DNA of 13,454 bases from Spirochaetota bacterium (GTDB taxonomy: Bacteria > Spirochaetota > Spirochaetia > SZUA-6), in assembly GCA_003641675.1 (NCBI GenBank), contig QNBI01000013.1, forward strand, positions 1-13,454, given 5' to 3'. Positions within the stretch are counted from its first letter, which is position 1; every line of letters starts with the position of its first letter. The position numbers and the translations under genes were made by a program. Below the pieces are notes generated by a model. It made no database searches. It saw only the letters and a list, made by a program, of their open reading frames with translations, and had not been told where the DNA came from. Below are positions 1-13,454 of the stretch, one piece after another.

Positions 1-885
1 GACAGGGTGCTCATAGGCGAAGTTGCGCTTGAGCCGCCAGACTACTTAAAAGGAGCAGAGAAAGCAGCAGCCTACCTCGGTGAAGCCGAGGACGGCCTCC
101 ATGCAGCTTTCAACTTTTCCTTTATGTATTCAAAGTTCAGTGCGGAAAAGTTCAAAGGTCAGGTGAAAACGTGGGAAGAGGCTCTAAAAGGAAAGGGCTG
201 GCCGGTTTATGTGCTCTCCAATCATGATGATAGGCGACATTTAAGCCGCTATGCAAAAGGGAAAGAGACTATTCCCAGAGCAAAAGTATTAGCAGCGATG
301 CTCCTTACACTTAAGGGAACCCCGTTTCTTTACTACGGCGAAGAGATAGGAATGAAAAACTTACAGCTAAAGCGGTCGGAACTACTGGATCCTCTGGGAA
401 AGAGATATTGGCCTTTCCACCCGGGCCGCGACGGAGAGAGGACTCCCATGCAGTGGAATGAGAACTTAAACGCAGGTTTTACAACAGGAAAACCGTGGAA
501 TAAGGTTCATCCCGACTATGCAAGCATCAATGTAGAAGCCCAGAATAAAGAGCCCGATTCCATTCTTAACTTTTACAGGAAACTCATCTGGATAAGAAAG
601 AAAAATATTGCCTTAAGGCAGGGAAAATACAGGGAAAACCCGGACTCACCAAAGGGCGTATTTTCATTCTTCCGGGAAACTAATGAAGAGACTCTTCTTG
701 TGGTGCTCAACTTCACGGATAAGAAACGGCGGCTTTCCTTTAACCGTATAAATATGGATAAGCGGAAAATTATTCTGGCGGAACCTAAAACAGAACATAA
801 CCTTTTCCGAGGAAAATGGATTAACATAGCGCCGTACGGCGTTCTTATACTTAAATTTATTATCCATAACTATAACTTTAAGTAA
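1..885 (+). CDS. GH13 alpha-glucosidase-type enzyme, C-terminal part (5' end outside window)
   Basis: This is the 3' portion of a glycoside hydrolase family 13 enzyme that hydrolyses alpha-glucosidic bonds in maltose, isomaltose-type oligosaccharides or related sugars. The frame is open to the left edge, so the GTG at position 7 is not the true start. The first visible residues, DRVLIGE, are GH13 conserved region III and the Glu coded at 19-21 is the expected acid/base. SNHDDRR follows, with the conserved-region-IV Asp at 226-228 acting as the transition-state stabiliser. The nucleophile Asp (region II) would lie off the window. Segments resembling DPLGKRYWPF, GRDGERTPMQW and AGFTTGKPW are typical of the oligo-1,6-glucosidase/alpha-glucosidase subgroup, and a beta-rich C-terminal domain closes the protein. 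Trehalose-6-phosphate hydrolase or trehalose synthase remain possible. It is the only plus-strand gene and runs convergently into nrdG. Confidence 0.9.
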   Translation, partial: DRVLIGEVALEPPDYLKGAEKAAAYLGEAEDGLHAAFNFSFMYSKFSAEKFKGQVKTWEEALKGKGWPVYVLSNHDDRRHLSRYAKGKETIPRAKVLAAMLLTLKGTPFLYYGEEIGMKNLQLKRSELLDPLGKRYWPFHPGRDGERTPMQWNENLNAGFTTGKPWNKVHPDYASINVEAQNKEPDSILNFYRKLIWIRKKNIALRQGKYRENPDSPKGVFSFFRETNEETLLVVLNFTDKKRRLSFNRINMDKRKIILAEPKTEHNLFRGKWINIAPYGVLILKFIIHNYNFK

Positions 886-1523
886 ACATTCTCCGCATAG
901 CTCTTAAGAATATTCGAAAAATCATTTAGAACTTTATCTTTATAGGGTTTTACGTTATCGACCTGTCTGTACTGCTGGATCACAATATTTTTAGTACCCC
1001 GGAGTATTTTACCCATCTCCGGAAAATCTTCCGGGGAAATGTATTCCGGATACATTGTAATCCTTATTTCATAATTCTCTGTTTTTCTTAGTTCTTCTAT
1101 GGAATTAAGAATAACATCCATCGGAAAATTTAAGTATTTTTCATAGAACAGCGTCTTAAAATCCATCGATATCAAGTCTGCATATGCTGAAATATCTCTA
1201 ATAAAACCCGGACTTGTCCCGTTTGTATCTACCTTTTTTAACAGAGTCGGGAAGGCCGCCGAAAGCCTTATAAAAAAATCCTTAATCTCATCCTGGTACA
1301 ACGAGGGTTCGCCTCCTGTTATAACAACTGCATCTATGAGATTCTGCCGTTTAGTAATGAATTCAAATACACTCCGCTCTGTTATTTTATTGACCCTTCT
1401 CTTTTTAAGAGAAGCATTATGGCAGTAGGCGCAATTAAGATTGCAGCCGCTTACAAAGAGGAGAGTGGATATTTTCTTAGGATAATCAACAAAACTAACC
1501 TTATGGTGTGCGAAAAAATTCAT
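870..1523 (-). CDS. nrdG: anaerobic ribonucleoside-triphosphate reductase activating protein (radical SAM)
   Basis: This radical-SAM activase uses S-adenosylmethionine and a [4Fe-4S] cluster to place the glycyl radical on NrdD. At 217 residues it is the long form, compared with about 154 in E. coli. The cluster motif is C27-x3-C31-x2-C34 within SGCNLNCAYCHN, and a GGEP motif at 70-73 is the SAM-contact element of the fold. The start is an ATG that overlaps the nrdD stop as ATGA, which implies translational coupling, with a weak GGTGA ribosome site inside nrdD. The 3' end overlaps the convergent glucosidase gene by 16 bp. The family also includes pyruvate-formate-lyase activases of similar sequence, but the direct coupling to nrdD settles the assignment. 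Confidence 0.93.
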   Translation of the reverse strand: MNFFAHHKVSFVDYPKKISTLLFVSGCNLNCAYCHNASLKKRRVNKITERSVFEFITKRQNLIDAVVITGGEPSLYQDEIKDFFIRLSAAFPTLLKKVDTNGTSPGFIRDISAYADLISMDFKTLFYEKYLNFPMDVILNSIEELRKTENYEIRITMYPEYISPEDFPEMGKILRGTKNIVIQQYRQVDNVKPYKDKVLNDFSNILKSYAENVYLKL

Positions 1524-3652
1524 TTTTCACCGATACTGATATAGAAATTATTCTCCGCATATCCATCCGGCTGCTCGTTATCCGGTAATGCCAGACCCTC
1601 TATACTGTATTCAACTCTGTTCTTAAACTCCTCTCTTTTCCCCCTGTTCCACGCTTTAACCGGCCTGTAGTATCCCGTTATTCTTGAATAAACTTCACAT
1701 TCTTCGCCGCATTCGGGGCATTTAAAATGTTCTCCCTTTAAATAGCCGTGTATCTTACATACCGAATATGTAGGTGATATGGTATAGTACGGTATTTTAA
1801 AATTAAAGGCTATTCTTTTAACCAGATCACGGGTAACTTCCCAGTCGCCGATACTTTCACCTAAAAATGTATGAAAAACAGTTCCTCCGGTATATTTTCC
1901 CTGAAGAGGTTCCTGCAGCTCTAAAGCGGAGAATATATCCTCCGTATAATCCACAGGAAGATGCGAAGAATTTGTATAATAGGGCACTTTATCTCCGGAA
2001 GTTATTATTAACGGATATTTCTCTTTATCACTCTTTGCAAGCCTGTAGGCAGCCGATTCCGCAGGAGTTGCTTCCAGATTAAAAAGATTACCCGTTTCCT
2101 CCTGATAATCCGCCAGCCTGCCGCGCATATAATCCAGTACTCTAAGCGCGAATGCATGCCCCTCTTTTTCTGCAATACCTTGCCGGATCCATCGTGCATT
2201 TAATGACGCCTCGTTCATCCCAACAAGCCCTATTGTTAGAAAGTGATTATTAAAATCCTTTAAATACCTCTTTGTGTACGGGAAAAATCCCTGACTGCTG
2301 AATTTTTCAATAACCTCTCTTTTTATCATAAGGCTTCTTTTTGCAAGGTCCATAAGCCTGTCTAAATGTATAAAAAAATCATCCTCATTCACGGATGTAT
2401 AAGCAGCCCTGGGAAGATTTATCGTAACAACACCGATAGACCCTGTATACTCATCCGAACCAAAGAGCCCTCCCCCCCTGCGTTTTAGTTCTCTTTTATC
2501 GAGCTGTAATCTACAGCACATACTTCTCACATCTCCCGGCTTAAATTCGGAATTTATGAAATTCTGGAAATACGGGGTTCCGTATTTTGATGTCATCTCA
2601 AAGAGCAGTCTGCTGTTGGGGTTTTCCCAGTTAAAATTCTCCGTAATATTGTATGTGGGAATAGGGTACTGAAAACCTCTCCCGTTATAATCCCCTTCCA
2701 AGTAACATTCCAGCAATGCCCTGTTCACGATATCCATTTCTCTCTGGCATTCGCCGTAGGTAAAATTTGTTTCCTTTCCACCGACAATAGATTTTCGCAA
2801 TTTCATATCCTCAGGTACCACCCAGTCCAGGGTAATATTCGTAAAAGGAGGCTGGGAACCCCATCTGCTCGGTGTGTTTACTCCGAACAGGAACGACTGA
2901 ACAGACTGTTTTACCTGTTTGTAGTTTAAACTGTCTATTTTAACAAAAGGGGCAAGATAGGTATCAAAAGAGCTGAAAGCCTGAGCCCCGGCCCATTCAT
3001 TCTGTAATATACCGAGAAAATTTACCATCTGGTTCACAAGGGTGGATAAGTGCCTGGCAGGGGCGGAAGCCACTCTGCCCTCAACACCGTTTAAACCTTC
3101 CTTTATTAGCTGCTCTATCGACCACCCTGCACAGTAAGGAGCAAGAACACCCAAATCATGGATATGAATATCACCATTTCTGTGTGCAGATGCAATTTCT
3201 CTGTCATATATTTCTTCCAGCCAGTAATTTGCAGTTAAAGCCCCGCTGTTATGCAGTATAAACCCGCCTAAGGAGAAAACCACCGTGCTGTTCTCCTTTA
3301 CCCTCCAGTCCTCCATATTTAAGTAGCTGTCTATTATGCCTTTAAATTCATTAACGGTAGATTTTACTGCCCTTATCTTTTCATGCTGTTTTCTGTAGAG
3401 AATATATGCCTTTGCAGCCTCGGTGAAACCGGAAAGTTCAAGGGTTTTCTCTACACTATCCTGAATATCCTCAATATCAACCGTGTCATTCACAATTCTG
3501 GACCGAAAATCCGCTACAGCTTTCAAAGACAGAAGTTTAATAATCTCCTCATCGTATGGCATATCCGTTGCATTAAATGCTTTCTGTATGGCCGTAGATA
3601 TTTTGCTAATGCTGAACTTAACAACCCTTTCATCTCTTTTTTTTACATACAT
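1520..3652 (-). CDS. nrdD: anaerobic (class III) ribonucleoside-triphosphate reductase
   Basis: This 710-residue glycyl-radical enzyme reduces ribonucleoside triphosphates to deoxyribonucleotides under anoxia, with no need for cobalamin. An ATP-cone allosteric domain occupies roughly residues 3-95. The barrel follows, with C174 in APYCAGW as the likely active-site thiyl cysteine and a C379-C380 pair in MCCRLQLD. The C-terminal part has a four-cysteine zinc site (C632, C645, C648, C652), and the radical glycine is G660 in RITGYYRP. About 27 residues extend past the usual RRV-type end and are unusual in length. The ATG start has a strong GGAGGGG ribosome site 7 nt upstream. It is the first gene of a nrdD-nrdG operon preceded by a B12 riboswitch and terminator-like hairpins, so expression is probably repressed by cobalamin. 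Confidence 0.96.
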   Translation of the reverse strand: MYVKKRDERVVKFSISKISTAIQKAFNATDMPYDEEIIKLLSLKAVADFRSRIVNDTVDIEDIQDSVEKTLELSGFTEAAKAYILYRKQHEKIRAVKSTVNEFKGIIDSYLNMEDWRVKENSTVVFSLGGFILHNSGALTANYWLEEIYDREIASAHRNGDIHIHDLGVLAPYCAGWSIEQLIKEGLNGVEGRVASAPARHLSTLVNQMVNFLGILQNEWAGAQAFSSFDTYLAPFVKIDSLNYKQVKQSVQSFLFGVNTPSRWGSQPPFTNITLDWVVPEDMKLRKSIVGGKETNFTYGECQREMDIVNRALLECYLEGDYNGRGFQYPIPTYNITENFNWENPNSRLLFEMTSKYGTPYFQNFINSEFKPGDVRSMCCRLQLDKRELKRRGGGLFGSDEYTGSIGVVTINLPRAAYTSVNEDDFFIHLDRLMDLAKRSLMIKREVIEKFSSQGFFPYTKRYLKDFNNHFLTIGLVGMNEASLNARWIRQGIAEKEGHAFALRVLDYMRGRLADYQEETGNLFNLEATPAESAAYRLAKSDKEKYPLIITSGDKVPYYTNSSHLPVDYTEDIFSALELQEPLQGKYTGGTVFHTFLGESIGDWEVTRDLVKRIAFNFKIPYYTISPTYSVCKIHGYLKGEHFKCPECGEECEVYSRITGYYRPVKAWNRGKREEFKNRVEYSIEGLALPDNEQPDGYAENNFYISIGEK

Positions 3653-3659
3653 AATAATT

Positions 3660-3666
3660 CCCCTCC
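3660..3666 (-). promoter_or_regulatory. ribosome binding site of nrdD
   Basis: On the minus strand GGAGGGG lies 7 nt before the nrdD ATG. The match to the anti-Shine-Dalgarno sequence and the spacing are strong and fix the nrdD start. Confidence 0.85.
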
Positions 3667-3683
3667 AAAGAATATTTTAGCAC

Positions 3684-3697
3684 CGTGCTTTTGCACA
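3684..3697 (-). other. small hairpin just upstream of the nrdD ribosome site
   Basis: The minus strand reads GTGC-AAAA-GCAC (3696-3685), flanked by a possible T-G pair. It gives a short 4-5 bp stem with an A-rich tetraloop about 18 nt upstream of the Shine-Dalgarno sequence. It might shape access to the ribosome site or protect the processed mRNA, but it is short enough to be chance. Confidence 0.25.
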
Positions 3698-3735
3698 ATT
3701 CCTACACAGCAGTTTCCAGAAATTAAAACTCCGAT

Positions 3736-3775
3736 AAAAAACCCTCTATCCGCATTATCTAAACGAATAGAGGGT
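3736..3775 (-). terminator. intrinsic terminator in the nrdDG leader (riboswitch expression platform)
   Basis: On the minus strand a perfect 9-bp stem, ACCCTCTAT (3775-3767) with ATAGAGGGT (3749-3741), encloses a 17-nt loop and is followed directly by a run of six T (3741-3736). It lies between the cobalamin aptamer and nrdD, in the orientation of nrdD transcription, so it fits premature termination when B12 is bound. A GGAGAGTC segment at 3804-3797 could pair with GACCCTCT at 3776-3769, with one mismatch and one G-U pair, as an antiterminator. That pairing is inference. Confidence 0.75.
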
Positions 3776-3807
3776 CTGTACCCGCCTTAATTAAAAGACT
3801 CTCCTTT

Positions 3808-3842
3808 AAAAAAATAAAACTCATCCTTATCCTCGAGATGAA
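3808..3842 (-). terminator. possible second, weaker terminator hairpin in the nrdDG leader
   Basis: Directly after the B12 aptamer the minus strand can pair TTCATC (3842-3837) with GATGAG (3825-3820), a 6-bp stem counting one T-G pair, with an 11-nt loop. A tract reading TTTTATTTTTTT (3819-3808) follows. The stem is short, but the T-tract is better than that of the downstream hairpin. It may be a tandem terminator or simply an AT-rich linker. Confidence 0.35.
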
Positions 3843-3852
3843 TTCTAAACAC

Positions 3853-4062
3853 AATGCACGGAAAGTATCCTGGCTTAAGGGCTAAAACCTACTCTCCGTG
3901 CCTTCCCATCCTCTGTCATTAATTCGACAGAAAGACAGTGGCATACTACAGATTTCGTTCCCTCTCACAGTGGCGGGTCCGCTCCGGATTCTCACCGGAT
4001 TCCAGTTTAATCTTTTAATAAGAACCGTACACTCATTTAAGTTTTTCAAAGAACCTTTAGAA
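3853..4062 (-). ncRNA. cobalamin (B12/adenosylcobalamin) riboswitch aptamer
   Basis: The minus strand shows the ordered conserved blocks of the cobalamin riboswitch. These are a TTAAAAGA-type segment near 4020-4010, GGTGAGAATCC (3996-3986), GGACCCGCCACTGT (3980-3967), a second GCCACTG (3942-3936), GGGAAGGC (3907-3900), and the B12-box core AGCCAGGATAC (3875-3865). A closing pairing is visible between GCACGGA near 3900-3893 and TCCGTGC (3862-3856). A peripheral hairpin CTGTC/GACAG (3929-3912) fits a variable arm. The outer ends are approximate. The aptamer sits in the leader of nrdDG, followed by terminator hairpins, so B12 binding probably stops transcription into the reductase genes. Known precedent: B12-independent isozymes, including ribonucleotide reductases, are controlled by B12 riboswitches in genomes that also encode the B12-dependent isozyme. 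Confidence 0.93.
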
Positions 4063-4075
4063 ACTAACAAAATTA

Positions 4076-4104
4076 ATCTAAACACTATTTTTGTCTGCTG
4101 TCAA
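4076..4104 (-). promoter_or_regulatory. predicted sigma-70-type promoter of the nrdDG leader
   Basis: On the minus strand a perfect -35 hexamer TTGACA (4104-4099) is followed after 17 nt by TTAGAT (4081-4076), or after 18 nt by TAGATT, as a weaker -10. Transcription would begin near 4069, just upstream of the aptamer, giving a leader of about 415 nt before nrdD. No other promoter as good is seen between the upstream operon and the riboswitch. Confidence 0.6.
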
Positions 4105-4123
4105 GATACATATTTGCATAAAA

Positions 4124-4141
4124 TCCTGATATCTAATCAGA
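4124..4141 (-). terminator. weak candidate terminator at the end of the catabolic operon
   Basis: The minus strand has TCTGAT-TAGAT-ATCAGG, a 6-bp stem including one T-G pair, followed by a poor T-rich run (ATTTTAT). It lies 28 nt past the stop of the molybdenum hydroxylase gene and before the nrdDG promoter, where an operon terminator would be expected. The stem is AT-rich and the tract short, so read-through into the riboswitch leader is possible. Confidence 0.35.
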
Positions 4142-4168
4142 GTTTGTAATTATTGATGACAGTTATTC

Positions 4169-6952
4169 TTACTTACCTGCTATTGCCTTAATAATTTTAT
4201 TAGGAGTCACAGGAATTGAAGTTAGCCATATACCCAGAGCATCGTGTATTGCACTAACAACAGCAGGAGCCACTGCAGAGAGAGGAAGCTCTCCCATCCC
4301 CTTTGCACCATAGGGGCCATCTGCATGAGGATTTTCCACTAGAATGCACTGTATCTCCGGAGTTTGCTTAATCCTCTGAAGGCCTAACCGTCCATAGGAA
4401 GCCGTTATAATTTTTCCATTTTTAATTTTAAACTCTTCGGATAAAGCATAACCGATACCCATCATTACACCGCCTTCCATCTGCCCTTCTACGGCAGCTG
4501 GATTAACAGGCCTTCCCGTATCACTTGCAGAAATTACCTTTAGAACATTTACCCTGCCCGTTTTCTCATTAACTTCCAGCATAACCGCCTGTGCGGAAAA
4601 ACAGTATGCAGCATGAAGCCGGTCTTTACCGGGGTCATATCCTCCCGGAGGCTCCTTAAGGCTAAAATAGGTTTTAGGCGCAGTGTATCTGTATTCATTA
4701 GAAATCTTTATACCCTCTTTTTTTAACCTTAGAGAAAAATTATCCAGAGTTATAATCGGCTCCGGTGAACCTTTTTCATAAAAAGCATCGTCTTTTATTA
4801 GCAACTCTCTGCCTTTGAGATTGTATCTATCTCTTATATAGTTAAAAATCTTCTCCTTCAAATTAAAAGCCATATACTTCACAGCATTACCGGAAACGAA
4901 TGTCTGTCTTGATGCAGTCGTCATCCCTGCATGAGGATCCCGATCGGAGTCTGCAGACTGCACAACAATTTTCGAATAGGGCCAGCCAAGGGTTTCGGAT
5001 GCAATCTGTGCCATAGCGGTATCCGAACCCTGCCCCATATCCACGCTTCCTACCCTTAAAATAAGATATCCGTCATCACTTACTTCTCCGTAAGCACCGC
5101 CGTAATCTTCCATCCCTATCCCAAGTCCTACATTCTTATACGAAGAAGCAATTCCGATTCCTACCTTCCAACCCGGCCTGGTTTTTGGTTTTTCTGCTAA
5201 TCCCAAAGCCTCTTTTACGGCAAGAAGACATGCCTTTGCTCCTACACTGGATTTGATACGCTCTCCTGTCAGCGTAGGGAGCCCCTCTGTAAGTATATTT
5301 CTTAATCGGATATCAAAAGGATCTATATTAAGCTTCTCCGCTATTCTGTTAAGCTGAACCTCGGCTGCAAATGTGACAGGAGGATTACCGAATCCCCGCA
5401 TAGCACATGTCGGATTATTATTCGTATAAACTGCATCGGCTTTAACATCGGCATTTTCAATAGTATACGGTCCCGCGGCAAAACTCACAGACCTCAATAT
5501 TACCGCTTCTTCCGCCGAGGCATACGCCCCTCCATCTGCGAGAATATCCGCCTTAACCGCAGTAATTTTTCCATCCTTCTTTACACCGGTTTTATACTTA
5601 AGAATCTGTGCATTTCTTTTTCCGCTGGTTCTTATCGATTCCCTTCTAGTATAAGTATACTTAACCGGACGGCCTGTTTTTAGAGCTCCGAGTGCAGCTA
5701 TGATATGGACACTAATATCCTCCTTGCCGCCGAATCCTCCTCCTACTGGCATATGTGCAATATGAATATCCTCAGGTTTCATGTTCAAAGCCAGGGCAAT
5801 CTGTTTAATATCATCTTCCGGTCCCTGGCTTCCCACATATATTGTTATTCTTCCGTCTTTCTCTAAAACTGCAGTGCCGGACTCCGGCTCAAGATAGGCA
5901 TGCTCAATAAACTGCGTACGATATTCTCCTTCAAATATCAGATCGGAACTTTTAAATCCTGCAATAATATCTCCTCTGCCGGATTCCATATGTGAAGCAT
6001 TATTTGTTGATTTCCCATTATTATGTATTAAGACTGCATTATTCTTTAAAGCCTCTTCCATAGTTCCCAGAACCGGAAGTAGTTTATATTTGACCCTTAT
6101 TTTCAACACCGCCTCTTCTGCAGCCTTTTCAGTCTCAGCATAAACTGCAGCTACAGCATCACCTGTATAACGGACTTTTTTATCTGCAAGTACAGGTTGA
6201 TCATCAATTATAAGTCCGAAAGCATTTTTACCGGGAATATCCTGAGATGTTAAAATTTTTACAACGCCTTTTACTCTTAGAGCTTCCTTAATATCTATCC
6301 CAAGGATTTCCGCATGCGGGACTTCGCTTCTTAAAACCTTTGCATGGAGCATATTCTTAAAGAAAAGGTCATCCGCATATTTTAACTCGCCTGTAGCTTT
6401 TGCAATTGCATCCACTCTCGGTACGGATTTCCCAAAGGGGTTAGAAATCTGAGGATAGATGTTATCTCTTTTAACCTTAACTTTTCCACTTTTTATAAGA
6501 GAAGCGGCATCTTCAACAGCCTCTATTATTTTAACATAGCCTGTGCATCTGCAGATATTAGGCTGGAGTGCACGCTTAATCTCATCAACATCCGGATCAT
6601 TATTACGATCCAGCAGGGCCTTTGTAGACATAATAAAACCAGGAGTACAAAAACCGCATTGAACGGCACCATGCTTAATATACGAATACTGGATAGCATG
6701 GATGCTTTCATCCGTGCTCAAAGATTCAAGTGTTGTAATCTGCGCACCTTCCAAATCTATCATTTTAGCCATGCATGAGCGTTTTGCTTTCCCGTTAATT
6801 ATTACCGTGCACGCGCCGCAGGAACCATCGTCGCATCCTCTCTTAGCGGCAGTTAAACCAAGCGTTTCCCGTAAATACGAAAGAAGTGTTAGGTTTTTAT
6901 CGCTTATTTCAGGATTATACTCCTGTCCGTTTATTTGTAATTTTACTTTCAT
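4169..6952 (-). CDS. fused [2Fe-2S]/molybdopterin hydroxylase (xanthine dehydrogenase / aldehyde oxidoreductase family)
   Basis: This 927-residue molybdenum hydroxylase inserts water-derived oxygen at a carbon of an N-heterocycle or an aldehyde. Domains in order: plant-type [2Fe-2S] ferredoxin (C40, C45, C48, C60), helical [2Fe-2S] domain (Q98-C99, C102, C134, C136), hammerhead domain from about 183, then the molybdopterin-binding domains. These carry SQGP at 375-378, GGGFGGKED at 404-412, AMRGFG with R519, and GAKGMGE with the expected catalytic Glu E888. There is no FAD domain, so the architecture matches Desulfovibrio aldehyde oxidoreductase and E. coli XdhD rather than complete xanthine dehydrogenase. 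Electrons must leave to a ferredoxin or separate flavoprotein. The start is an ATG four nt after the M20 hydrolase stop. It is the last gene of the eight-gene operon. Substrate unknown; purine or other heterocycle and aldehyde are both open. Confidence 0.92.
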   Translation of the reverse strand: MKVKLQINGQEYNPEISDKNLTLLSYLRETLGLTAAKRGCDDGSCGACTVIINGKAKRSCMAKMIDLEGAQITTLESLSTDESIHAIQYSYIKHGAVQCGFCTPGFIMSTKALLDRNNDPDVDEIKRALQPNICRCTGYVKIIEAVEDAASLIKSGKVKVKRDNIYPQISNPFGKSVPRVDAIAKATGELKYADDLFFKNMLHAKVLRSEVPHAEILGIDIKEALRVKGVVKILTSQDIPGKNAFGLIIDDQPVLADKKVRYTGDAVAAVYAETEKAAEEAVLKIRVKYKLLPVLGTMEEALKNNAVLIHNNGKSTNNASHMESGRGDIIAGFKSSDLIFEGEYRTQFIEHAYLEPESGTAVLEKDGRITIYVGSQGPEDDIKQIALALNMKPEDIHIAHMPVGGGFGGKEDISVHIIAALGALKTGRPVKYTYTRRESIRTSGKRNAQILKYKTGVKKDGKITAVKADILADGGAYASAEEAVILRSVSFAAGPYTIENADVKADAVYTNNNPTCAMRGFGNPPVTFAAEVQLNRIAEKLNIDPFDIRLRNILTEGLPTLTGERIKSSVGAKACLLAVKEALGLAEKPKTRPGWKVGIGIASSYKNVGLGIGMEDYGGAYGEVSDDGYLILRVGSVDMGQGSDTAMAQIASETLGWPYSKIVVQSADSDRDPHAGMTTASRQTFVSGNAVKYMAFNLKEKIFNYIRDRYNLKGRELLIKDDAFYEKGSPEPIITLDNFSLRLKKEGIKISNEYRYTAPKTYFSLKEPPGGYDPGKDRLHAAYCFSAQAVMLEVNEKTGRVNVLKVISASDTGRPVNPAAVEGQMEGGVMMGIGYALSEEFKIKNGKIITASYGRLGLQRIKQTPEIQCILVENPHADGPYGAKGMGELPLSAVAPAVVSAIHDALGIWLTSIPVTPNKIIKAIAGK

Positions 6953-6956
6953 TTCT

Positions 6957-8111
6957 CTACCTACATAAAGTCTTTATCGTTTCCGTGTAGACATTCGCTG
7001 CGTTTTTAAGCTGAGTAATATCCATCATCTCATCATTAGTATGACACAAACCGGCATCACCAGGTCCGTATTGTACCGCAGGAATACCTAAATCATTAAT
7101 TAAAAAATCCATTTCATTATAGCCATCTGTAAAATAAACTTTAGTTTCATTCTTTAATACCGACCTATGCGCATTTTTCACAGCAGTTACTATCTCTGAA
7201 TCCATATCTGTTAAAGCGGGCTTTAACCCTCTCTTTTTTATAGGCTCCCAGTTCCAGTCGGGCCTTGCAATCTCAGCTGTAACGTAAACATCGGGTATAT
7301 GGTTATACTTCTCAATAATCCCATGTATGTCTCTCATAATCTCTTCCTGCGTTTCTCCGGGGATTAATCTTCTATCGAACCAGAGGATACATTCATCCGG
7401 TACTATATTATATGCAACGCCTCCCTTTATGATACCAAGGTTTATCGTAGCCCTCGTTTTACCAATGCCTTTTATTTCGTGGACAGGAAAATCCATAGAT
7501 GTAATTTCACCAGCTGCCTTAATGCAGTATTCTACAGCGCTTACACCAAGCCAGGGTCTGCATCCGTGACTGGCCTTTCCCTTTACCATTATTTTTATCG
7601 GCATAGTTCCTTTACACCCTGTTCCCAATTTTAATCCAGAAGGCTCCGTAACAACTGCATAGTCCGCATGAATATCCATATCTTTAAGAAACATACTTCC
7701 TCTATGCTCGGATTCTTCATCTATAACACCAACAAAACCGACACCTGATGTTAGAGTTTCGTGCTCCGAAAGGATATTCTCAAAAGCAGTAATTACAGAA
7801 GCAATCCCGCCTTTCTGGTCCACAGAACCCCTGCCCCAAATATGATTATCTTTTATTATCGGTTCAAAGGGAGATTTCATTTTGTACGGTGGGACCGTAT
7901 CAATATGTGCATGAAAAAGTAATCCGAGTTTAGCATTAACATTTCCCGGAATTACAGCAAGTATATTAAATCTGCTTTTATCTACTTCGAACAGCTCTGT
8001 TTTACAACCTAATTTTTTAAAACGTTGAAACAGGTATTTCCCGATCTCACCTTCGCTGCCTGTAACACTTTTAATCTTAATGAGTCTTTTAAGTTCTTTA
8101 ACAACATCCAT
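6957..8111 (-). CDS. M20-family metallohydrolase (ArgE/DapE/YgeY-like)
   Basis: This 384-residue zinc-dependent hydrolase belongs to the acetylornithine deacetylase/succinyl-diaminopimelate desuccinylase superfamily and cleaves an amide or N-carbamoyl-type bond in the cytoplasm. Expected metal and catalytic residues are all visible: H69-x-D71 in HAHIDT, D98 in GRGSVDQKGG, the E132-E133 pair in IDEES, E156 in TEPSG, and H357 in LCHTND near the C-terminus. The dimerisation domain lies between, roughly residues 170-285. SVDQKGG, the FDRRL segment and the overall plan recall YgeY-type hydrolases found beside molybdenum hydroxylases in purine/selenium-linked clusters, which fits the neighbour directly downstream. 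ArgE or DapE proper is less likely because no arginine or lysine biosynthesis gene is near. The ATG start has AGGAG close upstream, in a 6-nt gap after the dehydrogenase gene. Confidence 0.85.
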   Translation of the reverse strand: MDVVKELKRLIKIKSVTGSEGEIGKYLFQRFKKLGCKTELFEVDKSRFNILAVIPGNVNAKLGLLFHAHIDTVPPYKMKSPFEPIIKDNHIWGRGSVDQKGGIASVITAFENILSEHETLTSGVGFVGVIDEESEHRGSMFLKDMDIHADYAVVTEPSGLKLGTGCKGTMPIKIMVKGKASHGCRPWLGVSAVEYCIKAAGEITSMDFPVHEIKGIGKTRATINLGIIKGGVAYNIVPDECILWFDRRLIPGETQEEIMRDIHGIIEKYNHIPDVYVTAEIARPDWNWEPIKKRGLKPALTDMDSEIVTAVKNAHRSVLKNETKVYFTDGYNEMDFLINDLGIPAVQYGPGDAGLCHTNDEMMDITQLKNAANVYTETIKTLCR

Positions 8112-8117
8112 ATACTC

Positions 8118-9098
8118 CTATTTTCTCCTCTTGTTCCATACCTCGCTATTAACAATAAACTCAGGATAATTTCCTTCCAAAACGTCAATTACACCTTTTA
8201 CTACTGCCATTCCCATCTTCATTTTTCCGTCATCCGTAAAACTACTAAGATGAGGAGTTACCACTGTATTATCCAGTTTAAATAACGGATTATCCGGATC
8301 GGGAGGTTCTTTTTCGTATACGTCAAGACCGGCGGATTGTATTTCGCCGTTTTTTAAAGCTTCTATAAGCGCCTGTTCATCTACAATTTTTCCTCTGGCG
8401 GTATTTATAAAGATAGCCTCCTTCTTCATCCTTTTAAATTCCTGTTTTCCGATAAACTTTTCCGTATCTTCCGTGTAAGGTATATGGAGAGAAATAACAT
8501 CCGATGTTTCCAACAATTCGTTTAAATCGGCAACCAATGAAAAATTCCCTTTAAGTAAATCGGTATCCTTATCAAAAAACGGATCATAAATGTGTATTTT
8601 CATACCAAGCCCTGCTCCGGCAATCTCTGCGACCCGTTTTCCTATTCTACCCGCCCCTATAAGTCCGAGCGTTTTGCCCTTTAGCTCCATTCCTGTAACC
8701 CTGGTTCTAATTCCAAAATCGCCATCCTTCCTCAGTGCTCTTTCAACAAACTCTATTTTTTTGGCAAGCATCAGCATAAAAGCGATTACATGCTCCGCCA
8801 CGGACTCGGTTGGTCCATTTGGGGCATAAACAACAGGAATTCCTTCCTTTGTCGCAGCTTTTATGTCAACACTGTCATATCCGACTCCCGGACGGCCTAT
8901 CACCCTAAGATTTTTTGCAATTGATATCATTTCTTCCGTCATTTTAAGCGCAACAGAACAGATTACCGCATCCACAGTTTTAATGGAATCTTTCAGCGCT
9001 TTTTTATCATCATTGTAAATCTTTACAACCTCAGCATAGCTCTCCAATTCTGCAAGCGCCTTTTTATGTAAAGGCCTGTCAATTAATACTCTTTTCAT
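8118..9098 (-). CDS. D-isomer-specific 2-hydroxyacid dehydrogenase (phosphoglycerate dehydrogenase-like)
   Basis: This 326-residue NAD-dependent oxidoreductase interconverts a 2-oxo acid and a D-2-hydroxy acid. The Rossmann motif GLIGAGRIG gives G148, G150 and G153. The catalytic set is R235 in NTARGK, E264 in YEKEP and H283 in TPHLSS. The His motif reads PHLSSFT where PHxGxxT is usual, so the substrate pocket may be atypical. There is no C-terminal ACT domain, so it is not a full regulatory serine-pathway SerA. The start chosen is the ATG at 9098, which follows an AAAGGAGAG ribosome site; a longer reading from 9128 has no good site and would extend deeper into the regulator gene. With this start it overlaps the gntR-type gene by 20 bp. 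Its place between catabolic enzymes points to a hydroxy- or oxo-acid intermediate in the pathway. Confidence 0.9.
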   Translation of the reverse strand: MKRVLIDRPLHKKALAELESYAEVVKIYNDDKKALKDSIKTVDAVICSVALKMTEEMISIAKNLRVIGRPGVGYDSVDIKAATKEGIPVVYAPNGPTESVAEHVIAFMLMLAKKIEFVERALRKDGDFGIRTRVTGMELKGKTLGLIGAGRIGKRVAEIAGAGLGMKIHIYDPFFDKDTDLLKGNFSLVADLNELLETSDVISLHIPYTEDTEKFIGKQEFKRMKKEAIFINTARGKIVDEQALIEALKNGEIQSAGLDVYEKEPPDPDNPLFKLDNTVVTPHLSSFTDDGKMKMGMAVVKGVIDVLEGNYPEFIVNSEVWNKRRK

Positions 9099-9798
9099 TA
9101 CTGTTTTTTCTCTCCTTTTTATAAGCATATTCTAGATATATACGCCGTGTATGTTTCAGCAGTGCAAGCATGGCGTCTCTTGCACCTATAGCATTCCGCT
9201 CTTTTATTCTGTCCAGAATTTCTCTATGCATTTCAACCCCTTTTAATGTATGCTCCACAGACTTAATAAAATTTTCAAGCGAAGCATGAAGTACATAGGA
9301 AAATTTCTCAAGAAAGGGGTTTTTAGTACTTTTAACAAGTGCCGAATGAAACTCAAGATCATACTGATAATAATCGGGCGTTTTGTTTCTAACCGAATTT
9401 TCAAGTTTATCCAGATAGATATCCATTTTCCTAATATCCTCGCCATCCGCTTTCTTGGATGATAAAACAGCTACACCAACATCCAGAACTTCGCGTGCTT
9501 CCATAAGATCCCTTATATTTGTCTCTGAATATATTGATAAATTAATGAATTTAGATAAAGGGACAGAATTATTTTCGGTTATATAAGTGCCTGCGCCTTG
9601 TTTGATCTTAACAAATCCCATAGCCTGAAGTATCTGCAGGCCTTCTCTTATGGAAGAAACTCCGACATTTAATACTCTGGCGAGGTCCCTCTGTGAATTG
9701 AGTTTCTGCCCCCACTTTAATTCTCCTTTAGAGAGCATGTTTAATATTTTTTCAGCAACCGCATCGGCAACGGTAAGCGTTTTTATAGGATCTATCAA
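9079..9798 (-). CDS. GntR-family transcriptional regulator, FadR/FCD subfamily
   Basis: This 239-residue DNA-binding regulator has an N-terminal winged helix-turn-helix (about 8-75), including the SQRDLARVLNVGVSSIREGL recognition region and a GAGTYI wing. A helical FCD effector domain follows. D147, H151, H191 and H216 match the usual metal-ligand pattern of FCD proteins, which commonly sense organic acids. The start is TTG, preceded by AGGAGG with 7-nt spacing; the nearer ATG in that stretch is out of frame and stops at once. It lies mid-operon, 29 nt after the PreA-like gene and overlapping the dehydrogenase gene, so it probably controls the operon it belongs to. The operator should be upstream of the operon, outside this window. 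Confidence 0.92.
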   Translation of the reverse strand: MIDPIKTLTVADAVAEKILNMLSKGELKWGQKLNSQRDLARVLNVGVSSIREGLQILQAMGFVKIKQGAGTYITENNSVPLSKFINLSIYSETNIRDLMEAREVLDVGVAVLSSKKADGEDIRKMDIYLDKLENSVRNKTPDYYQYDLEFHSALVKSTKNPFLEKFSYVLHASLENFIKSVEHTLKGVEMHREILDRIKERNAIGARDAMLALLKHTRRIYLEYAYKKERKNSNEKSIN

Positions 9799-9827
9799 AA
9801 CATTTCCTCCTTAATATTTAACTATAC

Positions 9828-10901
9828 CTATTTAAAGGTTACTGCATTTACAGGACATACACTTTCACATAACCCGCAGCCCACACAAGAAATTCTGTTA
9901 ACGGTATAGCTCTTTAAATTTTTACTTATCGCACCAGGGTAACATACCTTTTCGCAAGCCCCGCACATTGTACATATATCAGAGTTTATCCATGCCCTCA
10001 TATTAGCCGATACTTTTCTCTCTTCGACAATCTTATGTGTAATTCCTCTTAAATCTGAAATATTCCCTATATCTTTCTTTTTTAGATAACTTTTAAGATC
10101 TTTTTCCACCTTATTAAAAATGCCAGGGCCTTTAAGGAGAGGTTCGGAAACCATTCCCACACCCGTAGCGCCGGCCATTATCATTTGGAGTGCAGATCTA
10201 TAATCTGTAACACCGCCTACGCCTACAACAGGTACATTCACGAACCTCGAGATTTCATATATGTATTTAAGAGTAACAGGTAGAATATAGCGTCCTGACA
10301 GATAACCAGAGCCATCGACACTTCCAAGTAAAGGCTCTCCTGTTTCTATATCTATGGAAAGTATCGGCCCTATGGAATCCATTGCTGCTATAGCATCCAC
10401 TCCTGCCCTAACCAGACTTTTTAACACCTTTTCCATATCATGAATAAAAGGCGGCAGTTTAACCATAATAGGAACTTTTAATTTTGTTCTAGCAAGTCTA
10501 ACAGTTTTTATTAACTCATTGGAATTATAATCTACAAATGAAACAGCTTTAGAACCCGCCTTAACAAGTTCCACGGCCATTTCTACGGCAGTATCCGGTT
10601 TAACATAGTTTTTCGCTATACTGGTTACCAATGGGACATTAATATCCAGCTTACTTATTACGTCAAGCCACTCATTCATCCCTATACAGGACCAGTCTGC
10701 ATTTATCAGACTCCGCTCGTACTTTCGAATAAAAGGAACAGGAGAGATAGCAGGCTTAAGCCTTATACCCTTTGTAAAAATAAGCCCTATTCTGTATTCG
10801 GATACTAATTTTAGCAGTTCAAAATCCCCCGAAAGCGGACCTTCCGAAAGCATTAGAGGATTTTTTAATCTAAATCCTAGAAAATCAATTGAAAGCGACA
10901 T
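9828..10901 (-). CDS. dihydroorotate/dihydropyrimidine dehydrogenase-like protein with C-terminal 2x[4Fe-4S] domain (PreA-like)
   Basis: This 357-residue protein has an FMN-binding TIM barrel of the dihydroorotate dehydrogenase class (about 3-275) joined to a bacterial-type ferredoxin domain. The ferredoxin cysteines are C310, C313, C316, C320 and C339, C342, C345, C349. Barrel motifs include MVKLPPF (K148), GYLSGRYILP at 199-208, and a phosphate-binding region around GVGGV (227-231) and GATGVGM (244-250). The domain order matches PreA or the C-terminal half of dihydropyrimidine dehydrogenase. Oddly, where relatives have NxSCPx followed by a long active-site loop, this protein reads SFVDYNSNEL (121-130) and then goes straight to the next helix, so the catalytic Cys/Ser loop looks deleted. 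The start is the ATG at 10901 with GAGGAAGAA before it, 11 nt after the polyferredoxin stop; a longer reading from 10967 would overlap that gene. Actual substrate unknown. Confidence 0.85.
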   Translation of the reverse strand: MSLSIDFLGFRLKNPLMLSEGPLSGDFELLKLVSEYRIGLIFTKGIRLKPAISPVPFIRKYERSLINADWSCIGMNEWLDVISKLDINVPLVTSIAKNYVKPDTAVEMAVELVKAGSKAVSFVDYNSNELIKTVRLARTKLKVPIMVKLPPFIHDMEKVLKSLVRAGVDAIAAMDSIGPILSIDIETGEPLLGSVDGSGYLSGRYILPVTLKYIYEISRFVNVPVVGVGGVTDYRSALQMIMAGATGVGMVSEPLLKGPGIFNKVEKDLKSYLKKKDIGNISDLRGITHKIVEERKVSANMRAWINSDICTMCGACEKVCYPGAISKNLKSYTVNRISCVGCGLCESVCPVNAVTFK

Positions 10902-10912
10902 TTCTTCCTCAG

Positions 10913-11293
10913 TTATTCCCTTATACTTAAGGCATTTTCCGGACAGGCAGAAATACATGCCCCGCATTGATCACACATTAAAGCTTTATCACCTTCCGGT
11001 GAAAGAAAAACCCTGTTGCACACCTCCGTACATGCACCGCATCCGTTGCATTTATCATAAATTACACGAATCCCTTTTTCATCATGTATTATTGCATTCT
11101 CCGGACAAGCTGAAATACACACAGGATTCCTGCACTGCACGCAGACCAGGTATTGAAGTTTAATTACATCCCGTCTGTATATTCTAATCCTGCTTTTTGC
11201 CCGGTTTACAACACCTTCTTTTGCCATGGAGCATGCTGCTTCACATATCCTGCAGCCCGTACATAATGTTTTGTCAATACGCAGATAGCTCAA
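10913..11293 (-). CDS. polyferredoxin with four [4Fe-4S] clusters, electron-transfer partner of the tungsten oxidoreductase
   Basis: This small 126-residue iron-sulphur protein is of the HycB/DMSO-reductase-B/AorA type. It has exactly sixteen cysteines in four sets: C11/14/17/21, C51/54/59/63, C82/85/88/92 and C107/110/113/117, enough for four [4Fe-4S] clusters. No signal peptide or membrane segment is present, so it is cytoplasmic. The start is a TTG whose last bases overlap the oxidoreductase stop (TTGA), with GAGGA a few nt upstream; there is no nearby ATG. The tight coupling to the tungsten enzyme matches the AorA-AorB arrangement known in Aromatoleum-type aldehyde oxidoreductases, where the small subunit carries electrons from the tungsten subunit. 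The next gene carries two further clusters, so a chain of iron-sulphur proteins is likely. Confidence 0.9.
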   Translation of the reverse strand: MSYLRIDKTLCTGCRICEAACSMAKEGVVNRAKSRIRIYRRDVIKLQYLVCVQCRNPVCISACPENAIIHDEKGIRVIYDKCNGCGACTEVCNRVFLSPEGDKALMCDQCGACISACPENALSIRE

Positions 11294-13062
11294 ATTAAAT
11301 CCTCGATTTCCAGTCTTTTTAATGTCGATTCCAGAGGCGCTCCATTCTTCGACCAGCCCCGAAACTCATAATATTTATCCAGCATATAATCCTGCTTTGA
11401 TTTACTCATTACCTTTCCCTTTAACGGCCCTTTTTTTATTCCTTCCTTTGCAAATTTTTCCGGAAGATAATCATCGTCTCTTGTAATACCCTCTCTTAGG
11501 TTAAATATCCTCGAAAGGTTCCATATCCTTTCTCCTGCAAGCCTCATTTTTTTTAATGTCCAGTTTTCACCCGTAGATATGCTTACCATTTCCGGCAGGA
11601 TATCATTTAGCAAGCCTATTCCATAGGCAAACTGGCAAACAATTATACTCTCCTCTGCAGCTTTTTCATCCTGCTGTTCCTTGACAAATTTAACCCTCCC
11701 GTCCGTATCATCGGCATCCCAGACTCCTGCAAGTTCTCTGCCCAAAGGCCATGAACGCAGATGGCAGGCTCCTCTGTCCGCCGTCATATACACTAATGCC
11801 GTACCCTCCGAACACCGCGGATCATAGGCGGGTATTCCCATGCCTTTCACCTGTGGAATAAAATAGGATATTCCAAGCTCCCTGCCTGCAGATTTTAACC
11901 CCTCTGCAAGTATATTACCGATACCTTTTCTAAAAGTAATATCTCTCAGGAGTTTTAATACTACATAGCGCTTTTTTCCCGAGCCTTCCTTTCCAGCCTT
12001 CCCCGTGGCAAGCACCGCTCCTAATAATGAGCCTGCCGATATAGTATCCAACCCGTATTCATTACAGTAGTAGTTAAACTCAGCAATTAAATCCGGATCA
12101 AGTATGCCAAGATTGGGCCCGAAAAGCCCGATAGTTTCATATTCCGGTCCCTCAAGTTCTATTTTCCCTTTCCCGTAACCTTTTGCACATGCTACAGGAC
12201 ATTCACCGCAAGAAAGCCTCTGAACTGTAAGATTTTCGAATGCCTTTTCGTCAATGGAATTTACCGAAGGCAGCTGCCCTTCTGTAAAATTATTTACAGG
12301 CATTAAGCCGTTCATATTAACAGGAGCAACAGACCTCGGAGTTCCGTATTGTCTCTGTTCGGCGACCCATGGATTATCAAAAATAATTTTATTTGCTTTT
12401 TTTACTGCCTTTATAAAATTCTTTAAATCAGCGATAGGAATATCTCTGGTTCCTCTTACGGCAATGGCTTTGATCTTTTTAGACCCTAAAACTGCTCCGC
12501 TCCCGCCCCTTGCCGCATTTCTTGAATAATCGTTTGAAATACTTGCAAATCTTACAAGGTTCTCACCTGCAGGACCTATAGACATAACCCGCACACCGGG
12601 TTCGCCGAGCATTTGCCGCACTTTGTTTTCCGTTTCGTAGATATGCATTCCCCACAGATTAGAAGCGTCAATAAACGATACCTTATTATTATGGATATAA
12701 ATTACAACCGGTTTTCCAGATACTCCCTCAAAAATTACAACATCATTCCCGGTAGCTTTTAATTCCTCTGCAAAGTGTCCTCCTGAATTGCAGTCGAGAT
12801 AAATACCGGTTAAGGGAGATTTTGTCACTATTTCTATTCTGGAAGAAGCTGGTGCTGTTGTACCGTTAAGAGGGGCTGTTGAAATAATAAACTTATTCAA
12901 AGGGCCCAGCGGATCGATACCCTGCTTAATTTCTTTAAGAAGATACGCAGTGCCTATCCCCTTTCCTCCGAGGAACTTCTTTTCATACTCCTGCGGTATT
13001 TCTTCCTGCTTATAAGACTGACTATCAAGATTAATCCTTAATAAGGTATGATACCGTGCCAT
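11290..13062 (-). CDS. aor: tungsten-containing aldehyde:ferredoxin oxidoreductase
   Basis: This 590-residue tungstopterin enzyme oxidises an aldehyde to the acid, or runs in reverse, with low-potential ferredoxin. Visible motifs are LGGKGIGTAYL (31-41), GPAGENLVRFASI (163-175) and RGGSGAVLGSKKIKAI (185-200), which fit the pterin-binding N-terminal domain. The [4Fe-4S] ligands are C285, C288, C292 and a fourth, C476, within VCQF. E309 in EYETIGLFG and H434 in GACHLRSW match the conserved active-site Glu and His of the archaeal enzyme. Length is normal for the family. The usual DxxGLC around the last cysteine reads ESIIVC, so this is not a close copy of the best-known enzymes. The ATG follows the amidohydrolase stop with no gap, and the stop overlaps the polyferredoxin start. 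The specific aldehyde is unknown. Confidence 0.93.
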   Translation of the reverse strand: MARYHTLLRINLDSQSYKQEEIPQEYEKKFLGGKGIGTAYLLKEIKQGIDPLGPLNKFIISTAPLNGTTAPASSRIEIVTKSPLTGIYLDCNSGGHFAEELKATGNDVVIFEGVSGKPVVIYIHNNKVSFIDASNLWGMHIYETENKVRQMLGEPGVRVMSIGPAGENLVRFASISNDYSRNAARGGSGAVLGSKKIKAIAVRGTRDIPIADLKNFIKAVKKANKIIFDNPWVAEQRQYGTPRSVAPVNMNGLMPVNNFTEGQLPSVNSIDEKAFENLTVQRLSCGECPVACAKGYGKGKIELEGPEYETIGLFGPNLGILDPDLIAEFNYYCNEYGLDTISAGSLLGAVLATGKAGKEGSGKKRYVVLKLLRDITFRKGIGNILAEGLKSAGRELGISYFIPQVKGMGIPAYDPRCSEGTALVYMTADRGACHLRSWPLGRELAGVWDADDTDGRVKFVKEQQDEKAAEESIIVCQFAYGIGLLNDILPEMVSISTGENWTLKKMRLAGERIWNLSRIFNLREGITRDDDYLPEKFAKEGIKKGPLKGKVMSKSKQDYMLDKYYEFRGWSKNGAPLESTLKRLEIEDLI

Positions 13063-13454
13063 TTAAACCATTCTCCACGAAGCTCTGCTGTCCGGCCATT
13101 TTGCATTTAAAAGCAAATCCACATCCTTTCCGGCTTTTTTATAGAGGTCTTCCCTTAGCCTGTCCGCATTCTCCATTACTTTTTGTTCATCCAGCAGAAG
13201 AACTTTCTTGTTTTCCATTATAATCCTTCCATCCACAATACTGGTAACAACATCGCTTCCTTTAGCACTATAAACAATCTTTGGTACAGGTTTACCGCCG
13301 GGCATAATATGAGGCTGTTTGTAATCCACCAGAATAATATCGGCCCTTTTTCCCGCTTCAAGAGAACCTGTTATATCATCCAGCCTAAGCACTTTCGCTC
13401 CGTCGATTGTAAGCATTTCCAACGCCTTTTCGGCAGTAAGAGCTTCGGCATCCA
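13063..13454 (-). CDS. amidohydrolase (cytosine deaminase/SsnA/atrazine-hydrolase-like), C-terminal part
   Basis: This is the C-terminal part of a metal-dependent amidohydrolase, a superfamily that deaminates or hydrolyses purines, pyrimidines, triazines and related rings. The frame is open to the right edge: the residues before the TTG at 13422 read DAEALTAEKAL, so the TTG is not the start and the N-terminus, with the metal-binding HxH, is outside. LTAEKALEMLTIDGAKVL, GSLEAGKRADIILVD and GSDVVTSIVDGRIIMEN are standard elements of the end of the barrel and the C-terminal beta-sandwich in the SsnA/5-methylthioadenosine deaminase/TrzN group. The substrate cannot be fixed without the missing active site. 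It is the most upstream gene of the operon that is visible, abutting the aldehyde oxidoreductase with no gap. Confidence 0.85.
   Translation of the reverse strand, partial: DAEALTAEKALEMLTIDGAKVLRLDDITGSLEAGKRADIILVDYKQPHIMPGGKPVPKIVYSAKGSDVVTSIVDGRIIMENKKVLLLDEQKVMENADRLREDLYKKAGKDVDLLLNAKWPDSRASWRMV

Follow-up and report, generated by a model that had tools for sequence, protein, structure and literature searches.

The window analysed here comprises all 13,454 bp of contig C13, part of a fragmented Spirochaetota genome (G000, 81.8% complete), and eight minus-strand genes occupy positions 4169–13452 of it. On sequence grounds we tentatively propose that these genes, the distal part of a longer operon, may serve to import and anaerobically degrade a purine-type N-heterocycle, either base or nucleoside, and that a tungsten aldehyde:ferredoxin oxidoreductase (AOR) and its polyferredoxin (PFD) would supply electrons to a ring reductase (PRE) and a molybdenum hydroxylase (MOH). 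We found no description, in the open-licence literature, of a tungsten enzyme and a ring-reducing enzyme combined in one conserved set; the combination probably serves the breakdown of a purine-like ring without oxygen. The operon genes, with domain calls made from Pfam and NCBIfam profiles, are the following.

13063–13452, minus strand: AMH1, the C-terminal 129 residues of an amidohydrolase of the TRZ/ATZ type, whose gene continues past the contig end
11290–13062, minus strand: AOR, with the Pfam domains AFOR_N and AFOR_C, its metal assigned from the family
10913–11293, minus strand: PFD, an AorA-like polyferredoxin of 126 residues with four [4Fe-4S] sites (16 Cys)
9828–10901, minus strand: PRE, a DHO_dh-fold flavoprotein with two C-terminal [4Fe-4S] sites and no FAD/NAD domain (longest open reading frame from 10967)
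9079–9798, minus strand: a GntR/FCD-family regulator (Pfam GntR and FCD)
8118–9128, minus strand: HDH, a D-2-hydroxyacid dehydrogenase resembling phosphoglycerate dehydrogenase/glyoxylate reductase (domain and family profiles)
6957–8111, minus strand: an M20 hydrolase of the ArgE/DapE group (TIGR01910)
4169–6952, minus strand: MOH, a fused [2Fe-2S]-Mo hydroxylase of the xanthine dehydrogenase family without FAD domain (Pfam domains)

Starting PRE at the ATG at 10901 gives 357 residues, the length of the database copy P0001, and with this start the spacings in AMH1-to-MOH order are 0, −4, 11, 29, −50, 6 and 4 nt. The first-pass annotation of this DNA had claimed eight tightly spaced genes on one strand, among them a tungsten AOR with its polyferredoxin, a D-2-hydroxyacid dehydrogenase and an FCD regulator; the spacings of −50 to +29 nt bear out the arrangement, and the Pfam and NCBIfam domains back the assignments. 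Because the window is a whole contig, the operon is truncated at its upstream end. Nothing lies beyond the right edge in this assembly, where that annotation had suggested looking further, and the upstream genes were seen in the longer copies of relatives. A search of the G000 genome found neither the N-terminal part of AMH1 nor the missing upstream portion on any other contig; the 129-residue part of AMH1 is 72% identical to a 468-residue protein at L036:5180–6586.

The neighbourhood comparison that had been proposed as a check found PRE orthologues with conserved neighbours in 11 of 394 genomes of the class Spirochaetia, one of them being the window's genome (E 1e-80), and, at E 1e-75, in 4 of 396 genomes from the class of G395, whose record title reads Anaerolineae; at E 1e-40, 18 of 98 relatives match the PRE query, paralogues included. 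The eleven Spirochaetia loci contain PFD (11), AMH1, AOR, M20 and MOH (10 each), an ATP-binding cassette (ABC) importer (9), the GntR regulator and HDH (8 each), a second amidohydrolase, AMH2 (7), a transketolase (TKT, 6) and a hydantoinase (DHP, 4). Some of these loci are truncated by contig ends (G018 on the AMH1/AOR side, G209 on the M20/MOH side) or covered no further than the importer binding protein (BMP) and AMH2 (G128 and G184), and the picking of open reading frames sometimes kept an antisense frame, so that an uncalled gene may still exist (MOH in L087, a [2Fe-2S] subunit in L076 and L077). Across the loci, identity to the window is 45–80% for AOR and 41–72% for MOH. The longer copies add a PnrA-type ABC importer, the SsnA-like AMH2 and an HpaI aldolase, and some also TKT and DHP; the HpaI-family gene is present in G066, G097 and G067, the three AMH2-headed loci with sequence reaching beyond AMH2. 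The divergent G138 locus carries a dihydroxy-acid dehydratase, a DHDPS-family aldolase and a second M20 gene, the first part of which matches YgeY, and gave no match for HDH or GntR. Among the Anaerolineae copies, AMH1 and AOR lie near PRE in G470 and G663, and a HyuA-like gene adjoins PRE in G663. G417 combines AMH2 and the importer with AMH1, PRE and MOH. The G644 copy is a stretch of 3 kb that holds PRE and an incomplete MOH. Spirochaetales bacterium is the name given to two database copies of PRE, and Candidatus Atribacteria that of one 66% relative. That the gene order recurs across several genera argues against a chance arrangement.

MOH has the molybdenum cofactor-binding, hammerhead and two [2Fe-2S] domains of the xanthine dehydrogenase family, exceeding the Pfam cut-offs for MoCoBD_1, MoCoBD_2, Ald_Xan_dh_C and Fer2_2, and it scores 725.7 bits with the selenium-dependent xanthine dehydrogenase model TIGR03311, below the cut-off of 830.45. 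Its residues 411, 487 and 888 align with bovine Glu802, Arg880 and Glu1261, and the equivalents of all three are retained in 12 of 12 MOH copies compared from clusters of the window's kind (type A). In xanthine dehydrogenase, Glu802 and Arg880 are presumably the residues that hold purines. All eight hydroxylases from related clusters differ from type A across this pair, as do E. coli XdhA (Gln/Ala) and XdhD (Gln/Asn): the positions read Asp/Lys in 5/5 type B clusters, Asp/Arg (two) or Leu/Ala (one) in type C, and Glu/Tyr in a hydroxylase on contig C17 of G000. A review shows inhibitors docked on Glu802/Arg880 of xanthine dehydrogenase. The retention of these residues in all 12 copies speaks against a substrate that is another N-heterocycle of similar outline, such as a pterin, a flavin fragment, a nicotinate-like compound or a modified pyrimidine. 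We consider this substrate rather improbable, although the ligands of PnrA-type proteins are diverse, pyrimidines too are substrates of HyuA-like and M20 enzymes, and the aldolase and aldehyde genes would fit a polyol side chain. A scan of genome contigs with MOH also gave two relatives at 39% identity; their stretches match no other operon gene above 60 bits, and their genomes hold no PRE match at 1e-20.

The importer BMP has Phe at the sites of PnrA Phe36 and Phe186 and Asp at that of Asp238 in 7/7 Spirochaetia copies, Tyr/Phe/Asp and Phe/Phe/Asp at the same three sites in two Anaerolineae copies, and Asn-Gln at PnrA Asp27-Ser28; the Phe36 and Asp238 sites, and the numbering offset, are what we take to be those of PnrA. 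Its best match is Lbp, with 270 bits, and PnrA follows with 175 bits. Published work gives Phe186 as a PnrA site (PMC7093131) and guanosine as a fit to the Lbp density (PMC9601137).

It is conceivable, if unlikely, that the imported compound is a purine nucleoside, in which case the aldehyde and aldolase genes would serve the ribose half and the other enzymes the base. The aligned PnrA stacking Phe and Asp of the seven Spirochaetia binding proteins, two of the three sites being our assumption, would agree with this. TKT passes the transketolase model (602.8 bits, cut-off 488) and retains residues aligned with the phosphate pocket of human transketolase, whose roles there we take as given. The dehydratase and DHDPS-family aldolase of G138 would also fit, as would a pyrimidine-nucleoside phosphorylase gene (L040:2592–3908) that immediately follows the G097 operon in the same orientation. 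However, within the operon no gene could be recognised as a nucleoside phosphorylase or hydrolase or as a sugar kinase, and HDH and a tartronate-semialdehyde reductase gene point to C2–C3 products. The latter gene lies between PERM2 and AMH1 in the Anaerolineae copy G470 (379.6 bits, cut-off 340.75), and in G417 a gene for a CoA-acylating methylmalonate-semialdehyde dehydrogenase follows MOH (508.4 bits, cut-off 448.5). HDH itself scores 294.5 bits with the phosphoglycerate dehydrogenase model (cut-off 454) and 255.7 with the glyoxylate reductase model (cut-off 455). Judged by these family assignments, the accessory genes would suit C2–C3 semialdehydes or oxo-acids.

PRE had been labelled PreA-like. 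It shares the DHO_dh fold and the 4Fe-4S domain with the pyrimidine reductases PreA/PydA, but its PreA model score is low (143 bits, cut-off 335) and the NxSCP loop is lost. The catalytic loop reads SFVDY in place of NxSCPN, and a short loop with Tyr is found in 10/10 type A rows and in 5/6 rows of type C (SsnA/YgeY-type clusters), while type B rows read PTHCPHM and so keep the CP; the PyrD-like protein of G000 itself has the Asn-x-Ser-Cys-Pro loop (NLSCPN). Since PRE lacks this loop, PreA-like uracil reduction by it is unlikely, and a uracil pathway was not preferred. Nicotinate fermentation was weighed as well and set aside. PRE gave no match to E. coli YgfK at 1e-5. In the PRE tree, in which three long rows are of unsure place, type A forms one clade (support 100/99), as does type B (99/97), and type C does not.

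PRE and MOH both have Fe-S entry points, with no FAD domain and no NAD(P)H domain of their own. AOR shows all the features of an aldehyde:ferredoxin oxidoreductase, namely AFOR_N/AFOR_C, the Glu/His pair and the cluster cysteines; its sequence agrees with 1aor at Glu313, at His448 and at the cluster Cys, residues to which we assume the catalytic and cluster roles belong. It scores 408 bits against 1aor and 150 bits against BamB 4z3w (AORs overall 408–411). An assignment as class II benzoyl-CoA reductase was rejected, AOR being closer to the AORs than to BamB. A polyferredoxin partner and the context of ring reduction would fit an AOR-PFD pair that, like BamBC, reduces rings with tungsten, but the 408–411 bits to AORs against 150 to BamB, together with the kept AOR residues, make this very improbable. 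The likeness is rather to AorAB of Aromatoleum aromaticum, in which AOR is likewise joined by a four-cluster polyferredoxin-like subunit, AorA, according to PMC10413684; unlike there, no AorC-type FAD/NAD subunit adjoins AOR-PFD, and PFD has 126 residues. The simplest circuit we infer would run from the aldehyde to AOR, on to PFD and then to PRE and MOH.

Of the 49 PRE-family places found in 22 genomes, 20 have an AOR gene no more than 8 kb away. Against expectations that are crude, evenly spread genes being assumed, this is the case at 10/11 operon loci (0.32 expected), at 3 of the 11 next PRE-family places (0.27 expected) and at 7 of the remaining 27 (0.88 expected), or at 10/38 non-operon places combined (1.15 expected). 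In the AOR tree every type falls into a single clade, A with 11 rows (support 100/99), B with 5 (100/100) and C with 3 (100/100); the AOR trees track the types, and by this phylogeny AOR has co-diverged with them. We put forward, as a more speculative proposal, a second, ferredoxin-wired anaerobic purine pathway in which AOR and the AorA-like polyferredoxin would be the dedicated electron source of MOH and PRE, the loop being closed by the pathway's own semialdehyde. In a rival reading, which follows the ferredoxin-linked energy gain of the first-pass annotation, AOR would do no more than harvest energy from an aldehyde end-product of the same N-heterocycle operon, its ferredoxin passing to the general pool, Rnf or hydrogenase and not through a private loop to PRE and MOH; we regard this as possible but equally doubtful. 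AOR is canonical, AORs abound (139 places in the 22 genomes, four of them, two short pieces and two below cut-off, being omitted from the distance count), which makes recruitment easy, and one copy, G417, manages without AOR. Set against this are the occurrence of AOR near PRE-family genes far above expectation, and the fact that AOR has its own polyferredoxin and has co-diverged with the cluster types.

The hydrolases differ from their first labels. SsnA-type was not borne out for the cut amidohydrolase, the most SsnA-like enzyme being AMH2 of the relatives; SsnA is the best model for AMH2 (297.4 bits, cut-off 444; 275.1, cut-off 455.5), and AMH2 is 29% identical to E. coli SsnA (142 bits). 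The deaminase site HxxE, carried by E. coli SsnA and GuaD, reads HxxG in 8/8 longer AMH1 orthologues and HxxD in 5/5 AMH2 rows covering the site. The YgeY-type label of M20 likewise fell away (169.4 and 123 bits, cut-offs 321 and 321.5; 26% and 92 bits against E. coli YgeY), and M20 passes the ArgE/DapE model TIGR01910 (229.8 bits, cut-off 217.6). The reported absence of a hydantoinase holds within the window but not in some relatives, where DHP belongs to the operon (4/11 Spirochaetia and 1/4 Anaerolineae loci). DHP scores best with dihydropyrimidinase/hydantoinase models, and its identity to E. coli HyuA is 33–36% in Spirochaetia copies (36% corresponding to 276 bits) and 45% in G663.

From gene content, conserved order and kept active-site residues, which are read off the sequences, we infer the following scheme. 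The ABC importer would take up the purine-type compound, MOH would set the ring oxygenation as xanthine dehydrogenases do, and PRE would reduce and dearomatise the ring with ferredoxin-level electrons. Ring opening could be carried out by AMH2, AMH1 and, where present, the HyuA-like hydantoinase, and M20 might remove ureido or acyl groups. The carbon skeleton would be released as small semialdehydes or oxo-acids, such as glyoxylate, tartronate or malonate semialdehyde, or hydroxypyruvate, for handling by HDH, the HpaI-type aldolase and transketolase; AOR would oxidise the aldehyde product and the polyferredoxin pass the electrons to PRE and MOH, under putative regulation by the GntR/FCD protein. 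The substrate, the direction of MOH, the order of the steps and hydrolyses, and the electron loop are proposals on this basis.

Li et al. 2025 (PMC12507026) describe a reductive uric acid pathway with XdhD, YgfK/UacX, SsnA, HyuA, YgeW/UacY, YgeY and YgeX, propose that C. difficile XdhD and UacX may receive their electrons from reduced ferredoxin, and mention neither 'aldehyde' nor 'tungsten'. The E. coli/C. difficile cluster described there resembles the operon in its Mo hydroxylase XdhD, of which the C. difficile form also lacks the FAD subunit, in the DHO_dh-type UacX without FAD domain, in an SsnA-type and an M20 enzyme and, for some operon copies, in a HyuA-type one; the operon has in addition AOR, polyferredoxin, AMH1, HDH, HpaI, TKT and the ABC importer. 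Type A seems to contain distant relatives of five enzymes of that pathway. Compared with the E. coli sequences, MOH is 29% identical to XdhD (325 bits), distant overall and with a different pocket. YgeW, YgeX and YqeA gave no match at 1e-4 among 253 open reading frames of 20 stretches, a search of which UacY was not part; as a control, YgeW was found in 4/10 type B/C stretches and YgeX weakly in 2. A route parallel to the 2025 pathway describes the operon better than an unrelated one would. The earlier description of a different anaerobic route stands in that, among the open-licence papers listed by our searches too, none dealt with exactly this gene set, but not in the sense of an unrelated one; the expectation of purine- or selenium-type anaerobic chemistry, with hydrolases and ferredoxin-tied handling of aldehydes and oxo-acids, is supported. 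A Chloroflexota stretch (L034:3729–13426) has a related Mo hydroxylase followed by an amidohydrolase; the genes after it include, as identified by eye, F420-type ones and one of the luciferase family, a set that recalls the F420 variant mentioned by Li et al. (PMC12507026).

Types B and C share with type A the SsnA-like, UacX-like and XdhD-like genes, with AOR-PFD (B) or AOR nearby (C); they differ in having separate PRE and AOR clades and, in B, a FAD subunit. The five type B stretches (G067, G059, G026, G008 and G080) all have AOR, FAD and Mo subunits, SsnA-like and UacX-like genes, and four each have PFD (the G080 stretch begins at AOR), a called BMP and the ATPase; a transketolase adjoining the G008 cluster is 59% identical to the operon TKT. 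The six type C stretches (G034, G008, G059, G097, G049 and G025) have the UacX-like gene with varying SsnA-like, YgeY, carbamoyltransferase and PALP genes, and AOR lies at <1 kb in G034 and G008, 6.0 kb in G097, 10.0 kb in G059 and farther in G025 and G049. Types A and B occur together in G059 and G067, and A and C in G059 and G097. In G000, the C283 PRE and the C349 AOR fall within the type B clades, the C349 row lying inside B in the AOR tree. Contig C349 (L073) carries AOR and Mo-hydroxylase subunits, C395 (L074) a Mo subunit and an SsnA-like gene, and C283 (L071) a UacX-like gene and BMP-ABC; judged by gene content and tree positions, a type B cluster of this genome is probably split among the three contigs.

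Several points weigh against the proposed purine-type operon with its AOR-PFD electron supply. The distribution is patchy, and two listed genomes of the same genus gave no PRE match at E 1e-80. The importer of the Anaerolineae copies is just 34–35% identical, and G417 lacks both AOR and PFD, so the pair is not indispensable; conversely, type B clusters carry AOR-PFD although their hydroxylase has a FAD subunit. The usual catalytic loop is missing from PRE and the deaminase HxxE from AMH1 and AMH2, the YgeX- and YgeW-like steps are missing with no certain replacement, and several enzymes score below the cut-offs of their named families.

By tying a FAD-less Mo hydroxylase and a ring reductase to AOR-polyferredoxin, the operon makes one candidate donor directly testable. 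If the proposal is true, the related cluster types would rely on the same AOR-polyferredoxin pair, which would also become a candidate for the donor, so far undiscovered, that supplies XdhAC-type enzymes with electrons in the cell. Tungsten enzymes would join anaerobic purine-type turnover in Spirochaetes and Chloroflexota, and genes labelled PreA, SsnA or XdhD in such genomes might in fact belong to a different pathway.

Elsewhere in the window, positions 1–3652 contain ordinary neighbours, namely the minus-strand genes nrdD and nrdG and a truncated plus-strand gene of the alpha-amylase family. No terminator-like site between the operon and nrdD was found in 3500–4400. A functional link to nrdDG, 516 nt downstream, was dropped and the genes treated as unrelated: nrdD matched none of the operon stretches blasted, and the sole nrdG match among operon loci is a weak radical-SAM hit. 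A GntR operator search upstream of five starts gave two weak matches in one stretch and 0 in the other four.

Three type B clusters (L075:1057–6527, L076:10136–14985 and L077:14724–19491), with PFD, AOR, Mo subunits, SsnA-like and UacX-like genes and BMP-ABC, adjoin glycine-reductase-type genes. L075 has GrdA (PF04723) and thioredoxin genes, L075 and L076 each encode a DUF5940/FA_synthesis protein, and L077 has a similar frame (by eye); the G067 type B cluster has a glycine-reductase selenoprotein A gene (PF04723) nearby. A link of heterocycle breakdown to glycine reductase seems possible. On contig C17 of G000 (L072, 2617–10529), another AOR lies beside a three-part Mo hydroxylase, opposite PyrD-like and hydantoinase-like genes. 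At L080:2512–11837 (G018:C79), a PRE-family gene adjoins AOR, with RraA-like small proteins upstream and a UbiD-like gene downstream (by eye).

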